Shown here: positions 26,551-43,193 of the stretch, one piece after another
Position numbering within the stretch: position 1 is the first letter of the stretch
Layout: every line of letters begins with the position of its first letter
Assembly (NCBI GenBank): GCA_037951105.1
Contig: JBAMJV010007188.1
Location: 78,083-142,082, forward strand
Reading direction: 5' to 3'
DNA length: 64,000 nt
Source of the DNA: Echinarachnius parma
Lineage: Eukaryota; Echinodermata; Echinoidea; Clypeasteroida; Echinarachniidae
Notes under the pieces: model-generated
The model's database searches: none
The model's input: only the letters and a program-made list of their open reading frames with translations
What the model was told of the DNA's origin: nothing
Made by a program: the position numbers and the translations under genes

Positions 26551-27006
26551 AAACAGCCAGAGCAATAAGTCGACACATGAACTACGTGGACCGGTACAGA
26601 AAAACCCACCGCAGACGTACGCAAGTTACACAACAAACTGAGATTATTTATTCGCGCGCAGCGAAAACTTTAAATGGATGTATAACTTAGATTCTAAATG
26701 TTATAATTAACAAGTATTGGCTGATACATACCATGTTTTCTTTTCCTTTTTTTTTCTTTCTTTTTTTTTTTTTTTTGAGGGGGCAAAAATGCGTTTTGCC
26801 CCCCCCCCCCCCCCACTTTTTGGATTGGGGGGGGGGGCGGCCGCCCCCCCCCCCCTGCACCCCCACTTCCGGCGCCTATGGTACAGGCAATGGAGTCGTA
26901 CCCGTTATTTTTTTTTTTATTTAAAGGGGATTGTTTTAGCCCCGTTTTAGCTCCATTCTGTGGCGTAGTTGGACTTGGGGTATATACCTAAAACACCCCC
27001 TCGGTA
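26551..27006. other. T- and C/G-tract-rich sequence, no gene
   Basis: Long T runs at 26740-26776, C-runs at 26799-26814 and 26845-26857. No complete element delimited. Confidence 0.5.
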
Positions 27007-28728
27007 TAGTCTAGTGGGTAGAAGGGGTGTTCGTGCACCCCGATGAGACAAATTTTAATCTATGTTACTTTATGTAAAAAAATGTGTAGAAAACGATTAG
27101 CTATGTTAACAGCGCCAAAAAGTGTCCCATGTATGATTTTTATGCAAATTTATGCAAATTATGGTAGCCATTTTGGTTTTAGACTAGTATTCATATTTTG
27201 ATCATTTTCAAAGATATTTTTTTTTTAAAGAAAGAGTCCAGACTAATGTTTTGAAGGTCAGAGAACACGATTTTATAATTAAAAATCTGATCAGATGGGT
27301 GTATGACATCATAATATGCAAATTAGGGGCAAAATAAGCATAAAATCAATATTTTCTGCATAAATAGGCGTCTATTTCATATTGCAACTTATGAAAACAA
27401 TGAATGAACAATTTCTTTTGTCTATAAAAAATAAGTTCAATATATCTTCATACAAAATAAACCTTAAAAACTTTACTGCAAAACTTAAATATGCAAATTT
27501 ATGCAAATTAGAATCATTGGTACAATTTACATATATTTTATGAGTTGCTTTCTTTTTAATCAAATATACGGCACATAACTACCCACTTGAAGTTTCTAAA
27601 CATATGTATGGAAGGTCAATGAGTGTCATTGAATGGTGTATGAAGATAATTGAAGACTATGTGACGTCACAATATGCAAATTAGTGGCAAAATTTGCATA
27701 ACAATAAAGATATTCTGCATGAATCGGGTGATATTCCCGTGTTTGAGCCATGCAAACATTAAATAAACAATGTTTGAAGGCATAAATAGAGACTTATAAA
27801 ATATCTTCATACAAACCAAACTTCAAAAAAATAACTACGAAACATAAATATGCAAATGTATGCAAATTAGCCCCACAGTACATAATCCTTGTATTTTAGA
27901 AGCTACTTGCTTTTTTTAAAAATCAAATACGGCACATAACTGCCCACTTGAAGTACATGTATCTTATGAGTGTCATTGAATAATGTCTGAAGAAAATAAT
28001 GTTATGGTGTTATTTTATGCAAATTAGGGGCATACTTTTTATAAGATCAGTTTAATATATCATATTTTGCAATACTTTATAACTAATGAAGATAATTTCT
28101 GAACAAATCGTCATCATAATCATTAAACCTGCACATAAATTACATATCGCTACGATAACACTTTCATATAGTTACCAGCGTGACTTAATGTGCAAATGTC
28201 GGAAAATTGAAGTCAGCATTACATCTAACAAGGTCAATTGTGGCACATAGCTGGACATGTAATTTAGTCTAGACATGCGTGTTAAGGGCCAATGAGCTAG
28301 AATAAACAATTGCTGAAGTTATTTGATTACACCGTGTAAAATTTAGGGATGCCTTTAATAGCAAAAATCAAATTATTTCGGTGATTTAAATCAATATTTC
28401 AAATACATACGTTCAAGACTAAACATATAACCAAGGTCTCTTCATCTGAATCTTAATGAGATCATTCATATTCACTGTATAAAATCAAATGTCAAACATT
28501 ACAACACAATGCATATGTTAATGCAGATATAAGTAGACATAGCAAAATGTACAGACATATACAAATGTTTTGAGGAACAGAAAGAGGGATTGAATGACCT
28601 TTAAAGTTATTTTATAACATTTTGTCATGTGCAAAGCAAGGAAATATTATTGATGAGTATAACTGCATTGATGTGACATGTAATCCCATCATGGTTCTAT
28701 TAAATAAGGATTTCTTCATTCACATTAT

Positions 28729-29545
28729 TCATTCGTCATCTTCATTTCCTAAGAAATCTTGAAAGTCTAGATCGTCATCTCCATCTCCATCTCCGCTGTC
28801 ATCGCTGTCCACTTCATCATCTGAGTCTGTGCCTACCAAGTCAACCAATGACGGCGGAAGGACAGGGCAACATGACCAGACTGGTTCTAGTAATCCTTCC
28901 ACAGTGAGTGTCCATCCCTGTCCTTCACTGTACGGCTCAGGTTTCTCCACGATGGGCACATGGGCTCTCTTATAGAGCGCTGCACGGTGGTTGACTCGTT
29001 GAATGTGTGGCTGTAGAGCTGAGTGACAGGGTGGGAGGCGGGCCAGGTCCACTTTCGATTGGGAGGTTAGCTGTTTGTCCTCACCGACCATCTTCCGAAG
29101 CAGCTTTACACGGGCTTGGTCAACTGATGACTCGCGAGCCTGCCCATACATCAGACAGGTGAACTCCTCCAACTGCTGCACTGTCTTGAGGGTTACGTTC
29201 CAGTTAGTACCGAGCTCCCTGAAGGGTTGGTGGAACTTTGGAAATTTCTGTAGCTTTTTTAGGGGACCCACTTTCCCCTTTCCTTTGAATTCAGGCACTC
29301 GTGCAATCTTCTCCGGTAAAGACGTGACAGCCAAGGTGTGTGGCACAGTAGTCCTCACCGAACGATTTTGCGAGCTCAGTCACGTTGATGAGTCGGCGAT
29401 GCTTCCCAGATCCTGTATCAAGGTACACATTCAGGTTGATGGAGAAGTATGGACGAAGATATCCGTGTCTGGGGTCCTGACAACGGCATCCTTCGTCAAC
29501 TTCGTCATACTCATCAATAATATTTCCTTGCTTTGCACATGACAA
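28729..29545 (-). pseudogene. Captured coding fragment in the fold-back loop, frameshifted
   Basis: Two overlapping minus-strand frames: 29545-29291 ends TGEDCTSA, and 29358-28729 continues FKGKGKVGPLKKLQKF with an acidic C-terminus (DDDLDFQDFLGNEDDE). At the junction an extra TGAA shifts the frame and creates a stop, so the gene is broken. The FHALTGCDTTS-like motif, the EEFTCLMYG block and the RVNHRAALYKRAH...GQGW block resemble, as I recall, a large family of uncharacterised proteins common in cnidarian and echinoderm genomes, often in repetitive contexts. No function is known to me. The first codons lie within the inverted arm. Confidence 0.6.
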
Positions 29546-30587
29546 AATGTTATAAAATAACTTTAAAGGTCATTCAATCCCTCTTTCTGTTCCTCAAAAC
29601 ATTTGTCTGTACATTTTGCTATGTCTACTTATATCTGCATTAACATATGCATTGTGTTGTAATGTTTGACATTTGATTTTATACAGTGAATATGAATGAT
29701 CTCATTAAGATTCAGATGAAGAGACCTTGGTTATATGTTTAGTCTTGAACGTATGTATTTGAAATATTGATTTAAATCACCGAAATAATTTGATTTTTGC
29801 TATTAAAGGCATCCCTAAATTTTACACGGTGTAATCAAATAACTTCAGCAATTGTTTATTCTAGCTCATTGGCCCTTAACACGCATGTCTAGACTAAATT
29901 ACATGTCCAGCTATGTGCCACAATTGACCTTGTTAGATGTAATGCTGACTTCAATTTTCCGACATTTGCACATTAAGTCACGCTGGTAACTATATGAAAG
30001 TGTTATCGTAGCGATATGTAATTTATGTGCAGGTGTAATGATTATGATGACGATTTGTTAAGAAATTATCTTCATTAGTTATAAAGTATTGCAAAATATG
30101 ATATATTAAACTGATCTTATAAAAATTATGCCCCTAATTTGCATAAAATAACACCATAAAATTATTTTCTTCAGACATTATTCAATGACACTCATAAGAT
30201 ACATGTACTTCAAGTGGGCAGTTATGTGCCGTATTTGATTTTTAAAAAAGCAAGTAGCTTCTAAAATACAAGGATTATGTACTGTGGGGCTAATTTGCAT
30301 ACATTTGCATATTTATGTTTCGTAATCGTAGTTATTTTTTTGAAGTTTGGTTTGTATGAAGATATTTTATAAGTCTCTATTTATGCCTTCAAACATTGTT
30401 TATTTAATGTTTGCATGGCTCAAACACGGGCATATCACCCGATTCATGCAGAATATCTTTATTGTTATGCAAATTTTGCCACTAATTTGCATATTGTGAC
30501 GTCACATAGTCTTCAATTATCTTCATACACCATTCAATGACACTCATTGACCTTCCATACATATGTTTAGAAACTTCAAGTGGGTAC

Positions 30588-30932
30588 TTGGTACTTGGTA
30601 GTTTATTCCTCCAAAACACTCCATAGGAGTTTTAACTGGAGGTGGGTCCGAGAGAGTGGTTAGCCCCTAAGGACAGAAGGGTCCTTAGCAAGCGCATTCT
30701 GGAATGTATGAAGTGAGGGCTGGTTTACTGTAGATTGAAGTAGCTTATTCCATTCAGTGGTTGTACGGACGAAAAATGAATTTGCGAACGCCTCAGAGTT
30801 TGTGTGTTGCTGTTGATACTGTAGAGAATGGCCCCTTCGGTTTCTGTCTATTTTGGGTTGAATGAAGTCCTCATGTTTGATGTCCAGGTTTCCGTTCAGC
30901 ATCTTTTGAAAGCAGGTTAGGCGATGACATGT
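30588..30932 (-). mobile_element. 5'-truncated LINE tail inserted in the right arm
   Basis: Absent from the left arm: GGGTAGTTATGTGCC there is split here by about 340 bp. On the minus strand it encodes a LINE C-terminal tail (RLTCFQKMLNGNLDI, SFFVRTTTEWNKLLQS, SLHTFQNALAKD) and ends with CCAAGTA repeats, as in L2/CR1-like 3' ends. It post-dates formation of the inverted arms. Confidence 0.85.
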
Positions 30933-31502
30933 AGTTATGTGCCGTATTTGATTAAAAAGAAAGCAACTCATAAAATATATGTAAATTGTACCAATGATTC
31001 TAATTTGCATAAATTTGCATATTTAATTTTTGCAGTAAAGTTTTTAAGGTTTATTTTGTATGAAGATGTATTGAACTTATTTTTGGTAGACAAAAGAAAT
31101 TGTTCATTCATTGTTTTCATAAGTTGCAATATGAAATAGACGCCTATTTATGCAGAAAATATTGATTTTATGCAAATTTTGCCCCTAATTTGCATATTAT
31201 GATGTCATACACCCCTCTGATCAGATTTTTAATTATAAAATCGTGTTCTCTGACCTTCAAAACATTAGTCTGGACTCTTTCTTTAAAAAAATATCTTTGA
31301 AAATGATCAAAATATGAATACTAGTCAAAAACCAAAATGGCTACCATAATTTGCATAAATTTGCATAAAAATCATACATGGGACACTTGTTGGCGCTGTT
31401 AACATAGCTAATCGTTTTCTACACATTTTTTTACATAAAGTAACATAGATTAAAATTTGTCTCATCTGGGTGCACGAACACCCCTTCTACCCACTAGACT
31501 AG

Positions 31503-34500
31503 TACGCCTATGCTTATAATGTAGACATGCATTGCAGAATGATTAATGGTCATTTACTTGTGTATGTTATTGTTTGTTTGTTTTTTGTAACTTTTTTAAA
31601 ACCCACAAGCCAAAAGTAATTGACCACTCAAAGCCACACCACATCCAATCCAAAGCAGAATCAATAAATTCAATTCAAATATAGTATTGAAGTACTTAAA
31701 TTGGAAGAAGAAGAATAAGAAGGACAAAATTGCGCCCATGAAGAAGCCAAGATCGCACCCTCTGTGGAAATAGAGTTATCCAACCCGGAGGACCAAAATG
31801 CCTCGCAACCTGATGGGGCAGTTGGGGGAGCCTCTCCTGTACGGCAGTGACTAGAGAACAATTTCAAGGGGACCGCAAGCAGCAATTTAAGAAATAGTGA
31901 CAATGTTGGTAAACGTTTGAGAAACGGTGACTTTAAAGTGTTGTACACGAATGCGGACTCACTTGTGAATAAATTTCTTGAGCTTGAATTATTGGTGCAT
32001 GAACAAAACCCAGAATGTGTAATGATTACAGAAGCAAATGCAAAGAGTTCAATATTTCCGCTACTCCCAGCATCAGTGAATTTGCAGGGATATGACTTTT
32101 TTTGTAATTTGGACGCTACAGGAAGCAGAGGCATCATTATGTACATTAAGCAGTCACTGTCGGCTTCGGATATTCAACTTAGTGCTGACTTCAATGAATC
32201 AATTTGGGCCTCAGTTACATTTATGGGCAACACCACTTTATTATTGGGTTGCATTTATCGTAGCCCCTCTTCAAGCCAGTTAAATAATGAACACTTATGT
32301 AAGCTTATACGTGAAATGAACAGAAGAGGTGAGCAACATGTACTTATAGTAGGTGATTTTAATTTTCCTGAAATTGATTGGTCCAACTGGCATTCGAACA
32401 CCACAGAGGAACACCCTGCACATCAATTTCTGTCTGCTACCCAGGACGCATTTTTATTTCAACACATTTTGAAGCCGACTAGATTTAGGGAAGGACAACG
32501 GCCCAATGTTCTTGATTTAGTTTTGACTAATGATATGGATTTTATTCATGACATTGAGTATTTACCACCGTTAGGAAAAAGTGACCATGTTTGTTTAATT
32601 ATTGAATTGGCACTTGGACAGGAGACTGTACAGCAGGAAAAACGCATGGTGTTTGATTTTAATAAAGGAGATTATACGAAAATGAGGACGGATTTTAGCC
32701 TCATGGACTGGGATAAACTTTTCGCTGACCTAAATTGTGTTGATGCTTGGAAACTTTTCGCTAACACACTTTCCAAATCCATGGACGAGAACATTCCGAA
32801 GCGAACAGTTGGGAAAGATAGAAGGAAGAAAATTTATATGACACATGAAGCTATGACAGCATCAAGGAAAAAGCAGAGATTGTGGAAGAGATATCTTGAA
32901 TCTAAATGTATGTGGGACTATGAAGCATATTCACGAGAGAGGAATTCCCTGCTGACTAGGGATCTATGCAAGAACTTCGAACTACAGCTTGCCTCTGAGG
33001 TCAAGACTAACCCCAAGTCTTTTTGGAGATATGTCAATAGTAAAGCTAAAGTTAGAACCAAGATATGCAATTTGATGAGACCAGATGGAACTTTTGCAAA
33101 AACGGGACAAGAAAAGGCAGACATATTAAATAAGCAGTTTAGCAGCATTTTTACTTCAGAAGATCTGACCAGTATTCCAGTCCCTACGTTGCAGTACGAC
33201 GATGCTATGCTCGACAATGTGATATTTACCGCTGAAATTGTAAGAAAGAAACTCCTCTTGTTAAAGAACGGTAAATCTGCTGGCCCGGATAATTTTCATC
33301 CCAGAGTTTTAAAGGAGTTAGCAGATCATATTAGTGGGCCACTCGCGCGGTTGTTCGAAATTTCGCTGAGGGAAGCAGTACTACCTATAGATTGGAAAGA
33401 AGCCAATATTACGGCCCTACACAAAAAAGGTAGTAGGAAGGACCCTGGAAACTACCGTCCCATTAGCCTCACATCTGTAGTGGTGAAAGTGATGGAATCT
33501 GTACTTAGAGATGCCATAGTAGGACACATGAGAAGCCAGAACCTCTTTTCGGAAGCTCAACATGGTTTCGTGCCAGGCAGATCATGTACCACCCAGCTTC
33601 TTTGTCAACTTGAAGACTGGACAGAAAGCATGGACAAAGGTGAACCGGTAGATGTAATATATTTGGATTTCAAGAAGGCTTTTGACTCTGTACCTCATAC
33701 TAGACTGATCAGAAAGGTATCATCCTTTGGAATTGCTGACCCACTCCTCTCATGGATTAAAGCTTTTTTGTCACAAAGAAAGCAGAGGGTAGTAGTAGAT
33801 GGCGTTAATTCTAGTTGGGCCAGTGTGATGAGCGGCATTCCACAAGGAAGTGTATTGGGGCCTACTCTTTTTGTCATGTTCGTGAACGACCTACCAGATA
33901 CGACTGCAAGCAAAACTCAGCTATACGCAGATGATGCCAAGATTTATGCTCCTGTGCTGAACCCTGCTTCAAGCCAGGTACTACAACAAGATTTGAGCAA
34001 CATTCAGAAGTGGTCTCGCACATGGCAGCTGCCTTTGAACTCCCAGAAATGTAAGGCACTTCATATAGGAAAGAACAATCAACAGTGCTCATATATGATG
34101 GACAATGCAATGCTGGAAAATGTCACCTGTGAAAAGGATCTGGGAGTATTGATAGACGGTGAGCTGAATTTCCACAAACATATCTCCTCAGCAATACAAA
34201 AAGCGAACCAGATGCTAGGCCTTATCAAGCGTGCTTTTGTCAATATTGACCCGGACATCTTCATACCTCTCTACAAAGCACTTGTACGCCCACATCTAGA
34301 GTACTGCAGCGTATCATGGAGCCCAAGATTTGTTACAGACGACAAAAAGATTGAAGCAGTACAGCGAAGAGCAACAAGGCTGATTCCAGGAATGAGCTCC
34401 TTATCGTACCCAGAGAGACTGATAAAACTTGAGCTTTTCTCTCTTCACTACCGAAGGGAGAGGGGAGATATGATCCAAGTCTACAAAATCCTGCACGGTA

Positions 34501-34880
34501 TTGATAGAATCGATCCAGAACATTTCTTTGTCAGATCTGATTATCTACGTACTCGTGGACATCCTCTGAAGTTTTTTACTACCCGTTGTAAACTCAACCT
34601 CAGAAGCAGTTTTTTCAGCAAGCGTGTTATAAGTTCATGGAACAGTCTTCCTGCGTCATTAGTCACTGCTACTAGCGCCGTCACTTTCAAACATGGCCTG
34701 GATATTGTTTGGTTAAATAAAAGATTTGATATCGTTTGACTTCCATGCGCGCATGCTGTGCACAGTCAGTAAAAGGAATGCTATCAACGTGTTTATGACC
34801 GGGAGATCTACAGGGCTACCCTACACTCCTGTCTAGATGATGATGATGATGATGATGATGAAATGATGGCAGCTCTAGAT
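31503..34880 (+). mobile_element. CR1-clade LINE, near complete at the 3' side
   Basis: Consists of a short 5' stretch, the intact ORF2 at 31917-34739, and a 3' end with a GAT/ATG repeat (about 34838-34862). The 5' stretch at 31680-31790 encodes basic residues (KKKNKKDK) that may be leftover ORF1 or leader. The left limit is placed at the fold-back boundary because no better landmark was found. Confidence 0.75.
31917..34739 (+). CDS. LINE ORF2: endonuclease and reverse transcriptase (CR1-like)
   Basis: A 940-residue uninterrupted ORF. The N-terminal apurinic-type endonuclease has YTNADSLVNK near residue 10, an ITEAN glutamate near 38, GDFNFPEIDW near 145 and SDHV near 221. The reverse transcriptase has NYRPISL near 511, YLDFKKAFDSVPH near 582, GIPQGSVLGP near 641, and the catalytic LYADDAK near 668. 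The tail RGHPLKFF...SSFFSKRVISSWNSLP is typical of CR1/L2 C-termini. The protein nicks target DNA and primes reverse transcription of its own mRNA. Length is normal for CR1 ORF2. An intact frame with all catalytic residues suggests recent activity. A start upstream of 31917 is possible. Confidence 0.93.
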   Translation: MRNGDFKVLYTNADSLVNKFLELELLVHEQNPECVMITEANAKSSIFPLLPASVNLQGYDFFCNLDATGSRGIIMYIKQSLSASDIQLSADFNESIWASVTFMGNTTLLLGCIYRSPSSSQLNNEHLCKLIREMNRRGEQHVLIVGDFNFPEIDWSNWHSNTTEEHPAHQFLSATQDAFLFQHILKPTRFREGQRPNVLDLVLTNDMDFIHDIEYLPPLGKSDHVCLIIELALGQETVQQEKRMVFDFNKGDYTKMRTDFSLMDWDKLFADLNCVDAWKLFANTLSKSMDENIPKRTVGKDRRKKIYMTHEAMTASRKKQRLWKRYLESKCMWDYEAYSRERNSLLTRDLCKNFELQLASEVKTNPKSFWRYVNSKAKVRTKICNLMRPDGTFAKTGQEKADILNKQFSSIFTSEDLTSIPVPTLQYDDAMLDNVIFTAEIVRKKLLLLKNGKSAGPDNFHPRVLKELADHISGPLARLFEISLREAVLPIDWKEANITALHKKGSRKDPGNYRPISLTSVVVKVMESVLRDAIVGHMRSQNLFSEAQHGFVPGRSCTTQLLCQLEDWTESMDKGEPVDVIYLDFKKAFDSVPHTRLIRKVSSFGIADPLLSWIKAFLSQRKQRVVVDGVNSSWASVMSGIPQGSVLGPTLFVMFVNDLPDTTASKTQLYADDAKIYAPVLNPASSQVLQQDLSNIQKWSRTWQLPLNSQKCKALHIGKNNQQCSYMMDNAMLENVTCEKDLGVLIDGELNFHKHISSAIQKANQMLGLIKRAFVNIDPDIFIPLYKALVRPHLEYCSVSWSPRFVTDDKKIEAVQRRATRLIPGMSSLSYPERLIKLELFSLHYRRERGDMIQVYKILHGIDRIDPEHFFVRSDYLRTRGHPLKFFTTRCKLNLRSSFFSKRVISSWNSLPASLVTATSAVTFKHGLDIVWLNKRFDIV

Positions 34881-36767: not shown

Positions 36768-38519
36768 TGTAGCACCCATGTGGAACCCCTCCATGGTTGC
36801 TAATGTGTTCATTAATTGCTTTATAAGTTAGGAGTATTTATATTAATATGTTTGTGATATTGGGAATAAGTTTTGTTGTAATACACTTTAAATGTATCCT
36901 ACAGAGCCTATGATGGGAATCGGTATAGGAAATGGACAAGGGATTTATTTGGCTTTTAATTTAATAAATTGTAACTCCTAGTTTTATGTCTTTAAGCCGC
37001 TATTAAGGAGTGTTTGGATTACTTTAATGACCCAAGGAGCTAGGCTTTGTAGGTTATTGGATAAAGGATAATTAAGCTTTTCATTTAGCACTTGGGTTTA
37101 TTGTTAATTAGGGATTAAGATACTATTATGGAGAAAGCCTGGCTTGGTGCTTTATGTTTATATTGGTGTTTATTAACAGCTTGCCCTGGGGAAATTATGC
37201 AGGAGGCATAGTTTATTTGACTTTTGATTTAGGCTGAAAGAGGGTCCCCTTTGTCTTTAAAATTATGTTTGATAATATACTTGTTAGGTTGCATAAGCAT
37301 TTCCTGTAGGGGCGGGGCTTATACATTACACCTCCCAAAAGTAGCTTTGGCCAATAGTAATTAGTTTAGGTCACCTCTTTCTAGTAATAAAATATTTAGT
37401 CCAATCATGTGATAATAAGGAACCCTTCCCCCCTATGATGTACAGGAATATTATTTCCATAGGGCCATGTAGTTAAGGATCCATATAAAAGAGAATGTAA
37501 TAGGTAATTAATCATGAGTCACACGAACAGCAAAGGAATAGAAAGGTAGTCGTAATCAGGAGCAGTTAGCTCTCATCCCACCCAAGTTTCCCGTCATCTA
37601 CCATCCTCATCAAACTAATTATTAACCAAGAAATATCGACAACTTATTTGGACACTTCTTTGAACCATCGGAAACTAGATTGAAAGGAGAACTTTACGCC
37701 GAGAATAATATATTGGAAGCTACAAATTCAAGGAGTGAACTTTAGCCCAAGAAGCAAACCATTATTGCTCGTGGCTCACTGGATCATTTTAGCAACAAAC
37801 TAGTTGCCACTTTTGTGCCAAGGAGTCCCAGGCCATTCCCGCATCTTCCCGTCCAGAAGGTGCCCAGCCAGTAACCAGCCCCGTCCCGACGTCGAGCCCG
37901 AAGTCGCCCACGTCCTCGAGCCGTCGCACCATCCCAGCCCATCAGGAAGCGCATCCGAAACCGACATAACAGTATAGCTAAGTGGCCACCATTTACTAAT
38001 TTCATTTTCCCTAACATATCCCTTCCCTTCCCCCTATGACCTTGATATAAGCATTTAGTAGTAAGTTAAGTAGGTATTGTTTTGATCCTTACCGTTAAGG
38101 AACGTTTGGCAATAATATTTATTGCAACTAGTATTTAAGTCTGTAAATTATATAAGTTTGTGTTAGTTGAAATTGATTGAGATGGGATTTGTAATCCCAA
38201 CATGCATCTTTGTAAATAATAATTAACATTGGCATTCCACTGAAATATTATGTTTTATTCGATCGCTTTATTATTGTTGTTGGTGGCGTTTGTAAAGGTG
38301 AGTCAGGCTGGTGAGATGGTGGTTGTGGTGGTCTATGTATGAGTTGATGTGACCAGTTGGCATTGAACCTTAGTGTATTAGCTATCGAAAAGAACGGACC
38401 AATAAAACACTCCACCTCCGTTTACATGGAACCTACATTTCATGTAGATGCGAGGCGGATGTCCTAACCCCCAATTATTAGGATTACATAATATCTCTCT
38501 ATTTGGGTGGTGGGTTGCA
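36768..38519 (+). repeat. 5' LTR
   Basis: Starts TGTAGCACCCATGTGG and ends GGTGGTGGGTTGCA. Contains two CCAAT boxes, a TATA box (37484-37490) and AATAAA (38401-38406), so it has promoter and polyadenylation signals in the right order: U3 of about 740 bp and an R region of perhaps 900 bp. Confidence 0.93.
37347..37490 (+). promoter_or_regulatory. LTR promoter: two CCAAT/Y-box-like sites and TATA box
   Basis: TTGGCCAATAG at 37347-37357 (inverse CTATTGGCCAA, close to the classical Y-box CTGATTGGCCAA), a second CCAAT at 37401-37405 (inverse TGATTGGAC), and TATAAAA at 37484-37490. The spacing (CCAAT 50-130 bp upstream of TATA) is typical of a pol II promoter. NF-Y is the usual CCAAT binder. Confidence 0.65.
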
Positions 38520-38956
38520 CGGAACTCATGACCTTATTTTATGCGTTTAAATCAGCACCATATTTTTGATAGTTATTTTAAGAAATTTTTTATATTTTTG
38601 TATTAGTATTATAGTTAATTGGTTCGATGTCGACTGGTCCAAAATAAAAAATAACTGCCTTCTTATCATGCCTGACAAGCCTCAACAAATTATTTTGTAG
38701 GAATTGATAGTATGTGCTCGTCCAATCTCAGCATTAGGTATATTTTTTTTGTGTATCATCTTTGCTAATTTTGTTTAATGAATGTTCTTTAATTGTACTG
38801 AATTTGAGTTGTGTTCCTTGATTAACATATTGACTTTAATTAGACGAGATGGCAAACTCAATAGACGACTGCACAGTCGCTTTGAAGCTTTTGTGCATAT
38901 TTGCATAGGGCCGCAAAGTATATAGTGATAATGTAATTGATAGGACCATAATTATA
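38520..38956 (+). other. Leader between 5' LTR and Y-box ORF
   Basis: AT-rich, many stops, no gag. A TGG-starting segment (TGGTTCGATGTCGACTGG) about 100 bp past the LTR is the only primer-site candidate. Confidence 0.5.
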
Positions 38957-39835
38957 ATGGGGTTCGAATCCCAAGACCTCCCCCCATCACTTCGCTGCAC
39001 AGGGACTGTTAAATGGTTCCACGTGAAGAAAGGATACGGTTTCATAACATTGCCTGTGCCTGGTGTCCAAGATGTTTTTATTCATTGGTCAGACATTAGT
39101 CTAAATAATCCTAACAAAAGGCAACGAAGTGTTGGGGATGGAGAGCTTGTGGAGTTTGATTTAGTTACAAATGAGAAAGGCCAGAAAGGAATGAATGTGA
39201 CGGGACCTAACTTTACACACGTCCAGGGTAGCAGGTATGCCAGAGATCGGCGTCGACGTCGTTCCCGCAACAAACGGCGACGACGACGACATCGATCCAA
39301 CTGCGCATACCGAGACCCAATTACACTCTCTCCCTCCCAGCCAATCTCTACCCCATTCGCTCAATTTGAACAGGAGAATGTGGAGGATACAGGTATTTTG
39401 TTTTGGGACGCACCCCTACCCACTGAAGTGACTAGCCCCCTCCCCCAAGGTATAAATTGTGATGTAGTTAATGAAGATAGTGAGGTTGATGAGAATGAGC
39501 AGATTGCTCCTGATGAAAATGATGTTGTAGATGAAGTTGAACAGGGAGAGGAAATGGGGAATTTGATAATTTTTGATGATGAGCCTAGCGGTTCTGATTT
39601 ATTGTTGATTGAAGATGACCACTATGTCAGACGTTCACACAGACCGTCTATACCCCCTGATAGGTTAACATATTATCAGAACCAGTCTTCGGTTCCCACC
39701 CCTCATGTGCAGGATTGTCCGCAGGTGCGCCACACGTCTGAGTTCAGGCGTGCATTAGGATTGCTAGAAATTAATCTCTTCGCATTGTGCCAGTGGCCCA
39801 GTCGGGCAAGTAGAAATAGGATTGTCGAACTTTGA
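38957..39835 (+). CDS. Y-box-type cold-shock-domain protein inside the LTR element
   Basis: A 292-residue intact, intronless ORF. Residues about 14-87 form a cold-shock domain with GTVKWFHVKKGYGFI (RNP1) and DVFIH (RNP2). Trp20, Phe29, Phe41 and His43 correspond to the four nucleic-acid-contacting residues of human YBX1 (W65, F74, F85, H87); one extra residue lies in the loop. SVGDGELVEFDLV and NVTGP, then VQGSRYARDRRRRR, match the Y-box signature including the post-domain VQGSKYA motif, so this is Y-box rather than Lin28 or bacterial CSP. An Arg-rich tract (95-114) and a long acidic region (about 165-220) follow; near the end RRSHRPSIPPDRLTYY recalls Ty3-type pol tails. Y-box proteins bind mRNA and single-stranded nucleic acid; a packaging or RNA-stability role for the element is a guess. 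The ATG overlaps GGGGTTCGAATCCC, a tRNA T-arm-like sequence. Confidence 0.88.
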   Translation: MGFESQDLPPSLRCTGTVKWFHVKKGYGFITLPVPGVQDVFIHWSDISLNNPNKRQRSVGDGELVEFDLVTNEKGQKGMNVTGPNFTHVQGSRYARDRRRRRSRNKRRRRRHRSNCAYRDPITLSPSQPISTPFAQFEQENVEDTGILFWDAPLPTEVTSPLPQGINCDVVNEDSEVDENEQIAPDENDVVDEVEQGEEMGNLIIFDDEPSGSDLLLIEDDHYVRRSHRPSIPPDRLTYYQNQSSVPTPHVQDCPQVRHTSEFRRALGLLEINLFALCQWPSRASRNRIVEL

Positions 39836-41441
39836 ATGGCCCGTGCTAATTTTGCAATTAGCCAGCAACTTAATTGCTGGTTTGTGAAATTGTCATATTG
39901 AGCCATATAGATATTGTTGTTTAGATATGTAGGACTATATTACATGTGTCCTCAGCGATGATTTTGATATTTTGTGAGTTTATGTTTTTAAGACTCGCGG
40001 TAACGTAGCTCTAGTAAATAGTAGCTTTATTTAAGTGCATTTTGTGATACACTATTGAATTAATTATTGGTTTGGAGAAAATTCTATACAGAAATTTCTG
40101 TGCATGCATTTCCCTTGTTATAATGGTATGTTGCCATGATCGTTTTGATATGGTTTACTATTAGGAACTTTTTGTTGGATAAGTCATAACGTGTCCACTG
40201 TAAGTGTTTTAATTATGTTATTATTAGGTAAACATCTCCAGTTACGAGCTGCGACTTGTTTTGGTTTGAAGGGACCTCATCCCTTCATGTGCATTATGAA
40301 TATATTATATAGGCCTTTGTAACCTTTGAGTTTGTATTGCCATTTTTGTTTAGTTATGGAAAATATGGTACAGGGTACATATTTAGTGATAGTCTAATTA
40401 ATGTGGTTAACTTTTTTTGAAGTCTTAATTGTTGCCGCTTGATTGAGAGATAAATGTATGGAATATTAGGCAGTGTGATAATCAGGGAATTGGGCACTAG
40501 CCGGGATTAATTTTAGAGTTAGAATAAGCTCGGGAAGTTGGGAACTTCGATATGAGATATGATTTAGCTTAGGAGACATGCAGGAGTATACCTCTCTTTG
40601 AATATATGGGTACATTAATTGTTGCCAATCTTTGCATTATTTTTAAAAGTGATATTATCTTGTCGCTAAGAGACAAGTCTTGATTGAATCGCTTTTTAGT
40701 TAATATAGTCATTTATAATTAAGGGATTTGTTTTCTCTTTTATGCCTGCATTGTGAATTTGTGGGAATCAAATTGTTAAGTTTTAGAAAGACAACAAGAG
40801 ACACTTTCTTACTTAAATTTTGCATCTGAATGATACTTTTGTTTTTGTTTATTTTATTTGTGACTTCTTGAAAGTCGCATTTTGTTGTAATTTGATTCAC
40901 GCCGAAGCAGTTTAAATGTTATTATGTTATTATTTTTGCCTTTATATAATTTGATTTGATTTGATTTTTGTTTATTACGGCTAGATTCACTCTGAGGTTA
41001 ATTCGATATATTTCACTTTCGTTTTTGTTGATGTTTATTTGAAAGCCCGTTTGTAACATTCCATTAATTAGTTATTTTTGACGTTATACATTTCGTTTGT
41101 TGCAGTGACACAGATAAACAATATCACCGATACATGTTCGGCTTATGAATAGTTATATGAAAAATTGGTAATAAGAATTTTGTTTGTTTGAAAAAGACTG
41201 AGAACGGACGTAGTGAGCACTAGTAGGTAGATTTGCCACTCTTTTTGTTTTTATTTTATAATTTGTCTAATATCTTTTGATGATTTGTTTATATTTAACC
41301 TCATTTAATCGCTGTATCATATCTGTAGGGTGGATGCCAATCCATGTAAATGTATTTATGCTAGTAATTATTGATATTTGTAATTTATGTGGGCACATAA
41401 TTTAAATTTCGGGGACGAAATTTCCCTGGAGGGAGGGTAGA
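39836..41441 (+). other. Non-coding 3' interior of the LTR element with PPT
   Basis: AT-rich, no ORF or gag/pol similarity. The last 40 bp hold GGGGACGAAATTTCCC and the purine tract GGAGGGAGGGTAG (41428-41440) that would prime plus-strand synthesis. Confidence 0.7.
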
Positions 41442-43193
41442 TGTAGCACCCATGTGGAACCCCTCCATGGTTGCTAATGTGTTCATTAATTGCTTTATAA
41501 GTTAGGAGTATTTATATTAATATGTTTGTGATATTGGGAATAAGTTTTGTTGTAATACACTTTAAATGTATCCTACAGAGCCTATGATGGGAATCGGTAC
41601 AGGAAATGGACAAGGGATTTATTTGGCTTTTAATTTAATAAATTGTAACTCCTAGTTTTATGTCTTTAAGCCGCTATTAAGGAGTGTTTGGATTACTTTA
41701 ATGACCCAAGGAGCTAGGCTTTGTAGGTTATTGGATAAAGGATAATTAAGCTTTTCATTTAGCACTTGGGTTTATTGTTAATTAGGGATTAAGATACTAT
41801 TATGGAGAAAGCCTGGCTTGGTGCTTTATGTTTATATTGGTGTTTATTAACAGCTTGCCCTGGGGAAATTATGCAGGAGGCATAGTTTATTTGACTTTTG
41901 ATTTAGGCTGAAAGAGGGTCCCCTTTGTCTTTAAAATTATGTTTGATAATATACTTGTTAGGTTGCATAAGCATTTCCTGTAGGGGCGGGGCTTATACAT
42001 TACACCTCCCAAAAGTAGCTTTGGCCAATAGTAATTAGTTTAGGTCACCTCTTTCTAGTAATAAAATATTTAGTCCAATCATGTGATAATAAGGAACCCT
42101 TCCCCCCTATGATGTACAGGAATATTATTTCCATAGGGCCATGTAGTTAAGGATCCATATAAAAGAGAATGTAATAGGTAATTAATCATGAGTCACACGA
42201 ACAGCAAAGGAATAGAAAGGTAGTCGTAATCAGGAGCAGTTAGCTCTCATCCCACCCAAGTTTCCCGTCATCTACCATCCTCATCAAACTAATTATTAAC
42301 CAAGAAATATCGACAACTTATTTGGACACTTCTTTGAACCATCGGAAACTAGATTGAAAGGAGAACTTTACGCAAAGAATAATATATTGGAAGCTACAAA
42401 TTCGAGGAGTGAACTTTAGCCCAAGAAGCAAACCATTATTGCTCGTGGCTCACTGGATCATTTTAGCAACAAACTAGTTGCCACTTTTGTGCCAAGGAGT
42501 CCCAGGCCATTCCCGCATTTTCCCGTCCAGAAGGTGCCCAGCCAGTAACCAGCCCCGTCCCGACGTCGAGCCCGAAGTCGCCCACGTCCTCGAGCCGTCG
42601 CACCATCCCAGCCCATCAGGAAGCGCATCCGAAACCGACATAACAGTATAGCTAAGTGGCCACCATTTACTAATTTCATTTTCCCTAACATATCCCTTCC
42701 CTTCCCCCTATGACCTTGATGTAAGCATTTAGTAGTAAGTTAAGTAGGTATTGTTTTGATCCTTACCGTTAAGGAACGTTTGGCAATAATATTTATTGCA
42801 ACTAGTATTTAAGTCTGTAAATTATATAAGTTTGTGTTAGTTGAAATTGATTGAGATGGGATTTGTAATCCCAACATGCATCTTTGTAAATAATAATTAA
42901 CATTGGCATTCCACTGAAATATTATGCTTTATTCGATCGCTTTATTATTGTTGTTGGTGGCGTTTGTAAAGGTGAGTCAGGCTGGTGAGATGGTGGTTGT
43001 GGTGGTCTATGTATGAGTTGATGTGACCAGTTGGCATTGAACCTTAGTGTATTAGCTATCGAAAAGAACGGACCAATAAAACACTCCACCTCCGTTTACA
43101 TGGAACCTACATTTCATGTAGATGCGAGGCGGATGTCCTAACCCCCAATTATTAGGATTACATAATATCTCTCTATTTGGGTGGTGGGTTGCA
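41442..43193 (+). repeat. 3' LTR
   Basis: Same length as the 5' LTR with no indels that I could see. TATA at 42158-42164 and AATAAA at 43075-43080 are retained. Confidence 0.93.

Follow-up and report, generated by a model that had tools for sequence, protein, structure and literature searches.

A Y-box gene between long terminal repeats

The window analyzed here is a 64,000-nucleotide stretch of the Echinarachnius parma genome (contig JBAMJV010007188.1, positions 78,083 to 142,082), in which two 1752-bp long terminal repeats (LTRs) flank a 292-codon open reading frame (ORF) encoding a complete Y-box cold-shock domain (CSD). The domain is recognized by Pfam (E=2.6e-17) and its best match among solved structures is zebrafish YB-1 (E=4.9e-25). 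The element is composed as follows (window coordinates; L numbers denote loci and C numbers contigs of the same genome):

36768..38519, + strand: 5′ LTR with TG...CA ends, 1752 bp, from repeat comparison
37484..37489, + strand: TATA-like box, putative promoter of the 5′ LTR with a copy in the 3′ LTR (LTR offset 716; pattern match only)
38520..38776, + strand: leader 3′ of the LTR with presumed primer-binding and packaging functions; the leader of the gag-pol partner L029 is 83% identical
38785..39356, + strand: CSD cassette common to the window element and L009, which has an unrelated LTR (85% DNA identity; includes about 170 nt 5′ of the ATG)
38957..39835, + strand: ORF of 292 aa with CSD, arginine run and Pol-derived acidic tail
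38996..39205, + strand: cold-shock domain, aa 14-83 (Pfam PF00313, E=2.6e-17)
39248..39295, + strand: arginine-rich run, aa 98-113, read from the sequence, most of it invariant in 10/10 ORFs
39392..41441, + strand: partner-derived 3′ region, an in-frame Pol C-terminal tail followed by a long 3′ untranslated part (97.8% identical to L029:5782-7842)
41421..41441, + strand: polypurine tract region 5′ of the 3′ LTR, the same 21 bases in every tabulated copy with this LTR (family A)
41442..43193, + strand: 3′ LTR, 1752 bp, with 7 differences from the 5′ LTR

The two LTRs align with seven mismatches and no gaps (the 1753-base match includes one shared preceding base) and, against four other copies, all seven differences are private to one of the two; matches of 100% (rounded) to the window LTR occur elsewhere in the genome. 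The polypurine tract before the 3′ LTR reads GGAGGGAGGGTAGA. The bases that follow the 5′ LTR (38520-38533) are CGGAACTCATGAC, as at the same place in L029 and in L024 (family D, described below), and do not start with TGG; these bases were matched to no tRNA as primer for families A and D, although no dedicated tRNA search was made. Self-priming by the 5′ end of the transcript was considered and rejected: an 8-base complement lies near the expected start in the LTRs of the window element, L013, L015 and L019 and is absent there in L012, L020, L021 and L024.

Four CSD residues, W20, F29, F41 and H43, which we equate with the residues of YB-1 that stack on nucleic acid, are invariant in all 10 aligned element ORFs. 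The protein has no alternating basic/acidic C-terminal domain; the CSD is followed by an arginine run and then by a tail homologous to Pol. This C-terminal part continues the reading frame of the cassette and is the Pol tail of L029, which has gag and pol between copies of the same LTR. The window element is non-autonomous, since this tail is all that it has of gag or pol. A tblastn search with the C-terminal piece of L029 Pol located the same tail in the window element, L012-L022 and L024, and did not find it in L009-L011, L023 or L025-L028. In L017, the partner-derived part begins earlier, within the C-terminal region of integrase, and the resulting longer ORF is also present in L015.

The original prediction, made from the letters alone, had described two 1752-bp LTRs with about seven changes, an intact 292-codon ORF with a complete CSD, and conservation of the four contacting aromatic and histidine positions; all of this is confirmed. 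Its further statement that the interior holds neither gag nor pol needs correcting for pol: the ORF ends in a Pol tail, and 39392-41441 is 97.8% identical to the 3′ part of L029.

Copies in the genome and their gag-pol partners

A Pfam CSD search of the source genome (1.2 Gb, 14790 contigs) returned 43 matches, the window's included. We read 21 of them with flanks (the window and 20 further loci) and 13 in short stretches; the other nine are the third match on C8716, the second on C2362 and on C4764, and those on C2377, C4185, C14247, C5179, C428 and C2901. The CSD lies between long direct repeats in 18 of the 20 loci fetched with flanks, which together with the number of matches rules out a single pseudogene copy. 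The remaining two are overlapping stretches of C14532, a tandem array of LTR and ORF; L012 is also array-like and L026 is rearranged. The best repeat identity is at least 99% in 17 of the 20 loci (98.7% in L009, 98.9% in L015 and 95.0% in L026) and reaches 100% in L016, L017, L018, L020, L021, L024 and L028. The CSD ORF (223-396 aa) is intact in 19/20 loci. Target-site duplications of 4 bp border 13 of 15 tabulated copies, 10 of them detected by script and those of L023, L025 and L028 by eye after moving the LTR ends by 1-2 bases; in L017 three of the four bases match, and the table is without L010, L011, L012, L022, L026 and L027. Tandem arrays of LTR and CSD units were observed on C14532, C4764, C8716 and C4182, that of C8716 with a period of 8088 bases and 100% identity over the 813 bases compared.

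The 13 matches read in short stretches include two truncated members (L032 and L033), an exon resembling LIN28 (L034) and ORFs with a second class of CSD (L030, L038 and L039). On six contigs with this second class (C6268, C2377, C4185, C982, C8716 and C4764), matches to the LTR of L028 flank the CSD on both sides, in five of the six only over about 170 bases at 73-74%. Separate from these are L031 (C8155), L035 (C5482), L036 (C2362) and L037 (C10875), whose ORFs contain two or three divergent CSD-like repeats with acidic linkers and fall by eye outside the element clade.

Used as a query, the window LTR identifies at least eight same-LTR pairs that enclose a CSD ORF and at least six long pairs, with starts 9.54-9.57 kb apart and LTRs 97-100% identical, on C5313, C2699, C169, C4157, C1352 and C322; both counts are lower bounds (40/188 candidates scored). 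The genome-wide Pfam search gave no CSD match in any of the six long-pair contigs. The interior of L029 (C169) encodes Gag (439 aa, matching RRM, PNMA and zinc-knuckle domains) and Pol (1472 aa), in which reverse transcriptase, RNase H and integrase follow the Gypsy order. Two kinds of element, one with gag-pol and one with the CSD, share a single LTR (family A). The window interior is a patchwork of the two: its first 257 bases are 83% identical to the L029 leader, positions 873-2922 are 97.8% identical to the L029 3′ part, and the cassette between them has no L029 match at E<=1e-5. The window element thus resembles Ty3/Gypsy elements with a PNMA-type Gag in LTR, leader, 3′ region and purine tract, whereas these partners encode Gag and Pol and gave no CSD match.

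The partner Gag (L029:425-1744) shows an N-terminal RRM match of E=1e-7, and about 27 relatives among public proteins have the RRM-PNMA-CCHC arrangement or part of it. Seven species are named among 43 Gag relatives: two molluscs and five echinoderms (Lytechinus pictus and variegatus, Strongylocentrotus, Holothuria and Apostichopus), with echinoderms ranking as the best five. Together with host Y-box pieces that are 71-96% identical to Diadema, this makes an echinoderm host probable on sequence grounds.

A cassette common to distant LTR families

The LTR of L009 (family B) has no detectable similarity to the window LTR. It identifies its own long pairs, including those on C3676 and C5803 (40/49 candidates scored), and the C3676 pieces encode Pol and a PNMA-type Gag, the latter with no RRM match. 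L009 is 90% identical to these pieces in the leader and 92.6% in the 3′ part, and its ORF tail is 82% identical to their Pol tail, with the cassette/Pol-tail junction immediately following HRNLLLPY. A third LTR (family C) is found in L025; here a long pair on C1346 (LTR 85-92%) encloses Gag and Pol relatives, to which L025 is related in ORF tail (62% to the Pol tail), leader (74%) and 3′ part (81%). The fourth LTR, that of L024 (family D), has about 200 bp in common with the window LTR at 70%. Its long pairs lie on C1020 and C3722; the C1020 pieces are near family A (Gag 86%, Pol 81%) and L024 is 91% identical to them in the leader and 90% in the 3′ region. None of C3676, C5803, C1346, C1020 and C3722 has a match in the genome CSD search. 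The CSD elements therefore have their LTR, leader and 3′ region in common with the gag-pol elements of their own family. In A, B and C the end of the ORF corresponds to the Pol tail of the family's long partner, in D only weakly so. The Pol pieces themselves are only 40% (A-B), 47% (A-C) and 43% (B-C) identical.

The cassettes follow a different pattern. The window element and L009 agree in 136/162 bases before the ATG and in 305/345 coding bases, and L024 and L025 agree in 315/345 coding bases; the window element and L024 agree in only 266/345, though their partners are close. Because these relationships disagree with those of LTR and pol, the sequences point to transfer of the cassette between LTR families. 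Template switching would be a suitable route, and PMC13317346 describes such switching between unrelated packaged RNAs for plant elements.

Selection, proposed mechanism and its alternatives

Over the CSD and basic run, the ratio of nonsynonymous to synonymous substitution rates (dN/dS) is 0.09-0.30 between families at dS 0.24-2.6 (Nei-Gojobori, 12/18 aligned ORFs; the pairs are not independent), and Fisher tests of six pairs, including one intra-family pair, gave p values between 7e-5 and 3e-18. The ratio for the tail, where computable, is mostly higher. The CSD is under purifying selection. Selection had been raised as a possibility in the original prediction, which also anticipated a recent, multicopy, non-autonomous element with a conserved CSD ORF and sought a Ty3-like partner with the same LTR; these expectations hold, L029 being such a partner. 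It did not anticipate the fusion of the CSD to a Pol tail or the occurrence of related cassettes in other LTR families. Of two outcomes named there as fatal, a lone processed pseudogene is at odds with the many copies that carry the CSD between LTRs. The other, copies with gag-pol and no CSD, is half true: at least six same-LTR pairs of about 9.5 kb have no CSD match and one was read with gag-pol, but at least eight same-LTR pairs do enclose the CSD.

We consider it likely that the window element belongs to a group of non-autonomous Ty3/Gypsy-type elements that are moved by gag-pol partners and have a single gene, a captured Y-box cassette without introns that runs in frame into the C-terminal tail of Pol. 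As the shared LTR, leader and 3′ region suggest, such a satellite would move in trans with the Gag and Pol of its partner, and template switching of co-packaged RNAs would allow the cassette to pass from one family to another. The encoded protein may use its CSD and arginine run to bind element RNA, whereby satellite RNA would be stabilized, packaged or copied in competition with partner RNA. We give this role of the protein about an even chance. Y-box proteins are general RNA binders, and selection on the CSD does not tell which RNA step is served; the protein could instead be selected for another job, for instance protecting element RNA against silencing by host small RNAs or hindering the partner. 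We regard this as unlikely, albeit the most serious of the alternatives. Nothing in the sequence favors it over packaging or stability, and the latter are favored because retroviruses use host YB-1 in RNA metabolism and assembly (PMC6040738 and PMC4486188).

The origin of the cassette bears on a second alternative, in which several independent captures were made from the host Y-box gene family and the selection signal reflects the donor genes rather than the elements. In a tree of this short domain (one partial row, midpoint root), the element CSDs fall into two well separated classes (L028, L030, L038 and L039 versus the rest, support 99/96), so that two captures are possible. However, all 17 element CSDs form one group against 13 others, with support of 100/99 and a long stem, and the pre-ATG stretch common to the window element and L009 also argues against separate events. 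The sole host-type Y-box gene found, C4834, has its CSD over at least three separate stretches split by introns (residues 73-82 not located), and its pieces are 71-96% identical to the Diadema Y-box protein as against 51-60% for the element CSDs. Repeated capture is thus rather improbable. Since the host CSD is split by introns, the captured molecule was probably a spliced RNA. The element protein retains from metazoan Y-box proteins (YBX1-3, yps) this degree of identity to the urchin protein, the contact residues and a basic stretch following the CSD; it differs from them in its intron-less gene, its Pol-derived tail and its separate clade. Public proteins yielded no element-like relative, only host-type Y-box and multi-CSD proteins, among the best 120 of 1149 and the best 120 of 2021 matches, judged mostly by name and score and in six cases by sequence; in the 2021-match search only the 7980 candidates sharing most words were scored. 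A scan of viral contigs gave three CSD loci at 30-43% identity.

A neutral passenger, an inert cargo that is intact only because the copies are young, would agree with the many LTR pairs that are 99-100% identical, but it is very improbable given the low dN/dS over the large synonymous distances between families. Adoption of the gene by the host is equally hard to credit: selection alone cannot separate benefit to the element from benefit to the host, yet conserved ORFs are present in numerous young copies, the majority of which have target duplications and identical LTRs, and no single fixed locus stands out.

Several observations weigh against a partner-driven satellite. Only one of the six family A partner interiors (L029) was read whole, and the B and D partners in pieces only. 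The Pol tail of C1020 is closer to the ORF tail of the window element (62% identity) than to that of L024 (only 45%). The CSD frame of L022 is shortened, and no long partner of the second CSD class was found among 52 matches to the L028 LTR. The window copy itself is not bordered by a target-site duplication (its flanks read CAAA and TTAT). Recombination of two distinct element types was rejected as the cause, both window LTRs being nearest to the L016 type with all differences private; recombination of two similar copies may account for it.

Elsewhere in the window, 31917-34739 (+) holds a non-LTR retrotransposon with an intact ORF of 940 aa that matches endonuclease and reverse transcriptase. 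A long inverted repeat pair (27004-28663 and 29504-31505, arms 97-98% identical) encloses a short middle part with a 209-aa ORF on the minus strand (28729-29358).

Known systems and significance

LTR elements that are non-autonomous are already known, as is gene capture, with some captured genes under selection. LARD and TRIM elements are non-autonomous LTR elements that are not known to have a conserved ORF; the window element likewise relies on partner enzymes but carries a conserved, selected ORF, so that it does not lack coding capacity. In acutely transforming retroviruses a host gene replaces gag-pol, is fused to viral coding sequence and requires a helper. Here, by contrast, the gene is a Y-box RNA binder, the copies are many and germline, and the cassette is common to distant families. 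Plant gene-capturing LTR elements also hold host gene sequence and, according to PMC13317346, show selection on captured genes (negative in most rice cases) as well as template switching between packaged RNAs. The Bs1 element reportedly captured partial segments of three genes, none a full-length ORF, whereas a complete RNA-binding domain is here the sole gene, in several LTR families with family-own tails. Identity with Troyka was rejected on its CG...CG ends and 3-bp duplications, as given in PMC12440569, as against TG...CA and 4 bp in the window family. Among the open-licence papers listed in the searches, none described a CSD in an LTR element, and we found no equivalent of satellites from several distant LTR families that have one complete RNA-binding gene, kept by selection, and no other.

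Possible, though in our view a little short of an even chance, is that these elements are true LTR-retrotransposon satellites with a portable gene. By analogy with phage satellites, which exploit the packaging of their helpers, the cassette would ride several distant helper families, change helper by template switching and give satellite RNA an advantage in helper particles. With a Y-box gene of its own, an element of this kind would allow a direct test of what such proteins do in the packaging and stability of retroelement RNA, and it would show that a gene can be owned and exchanged by satellites of retrotransposons.

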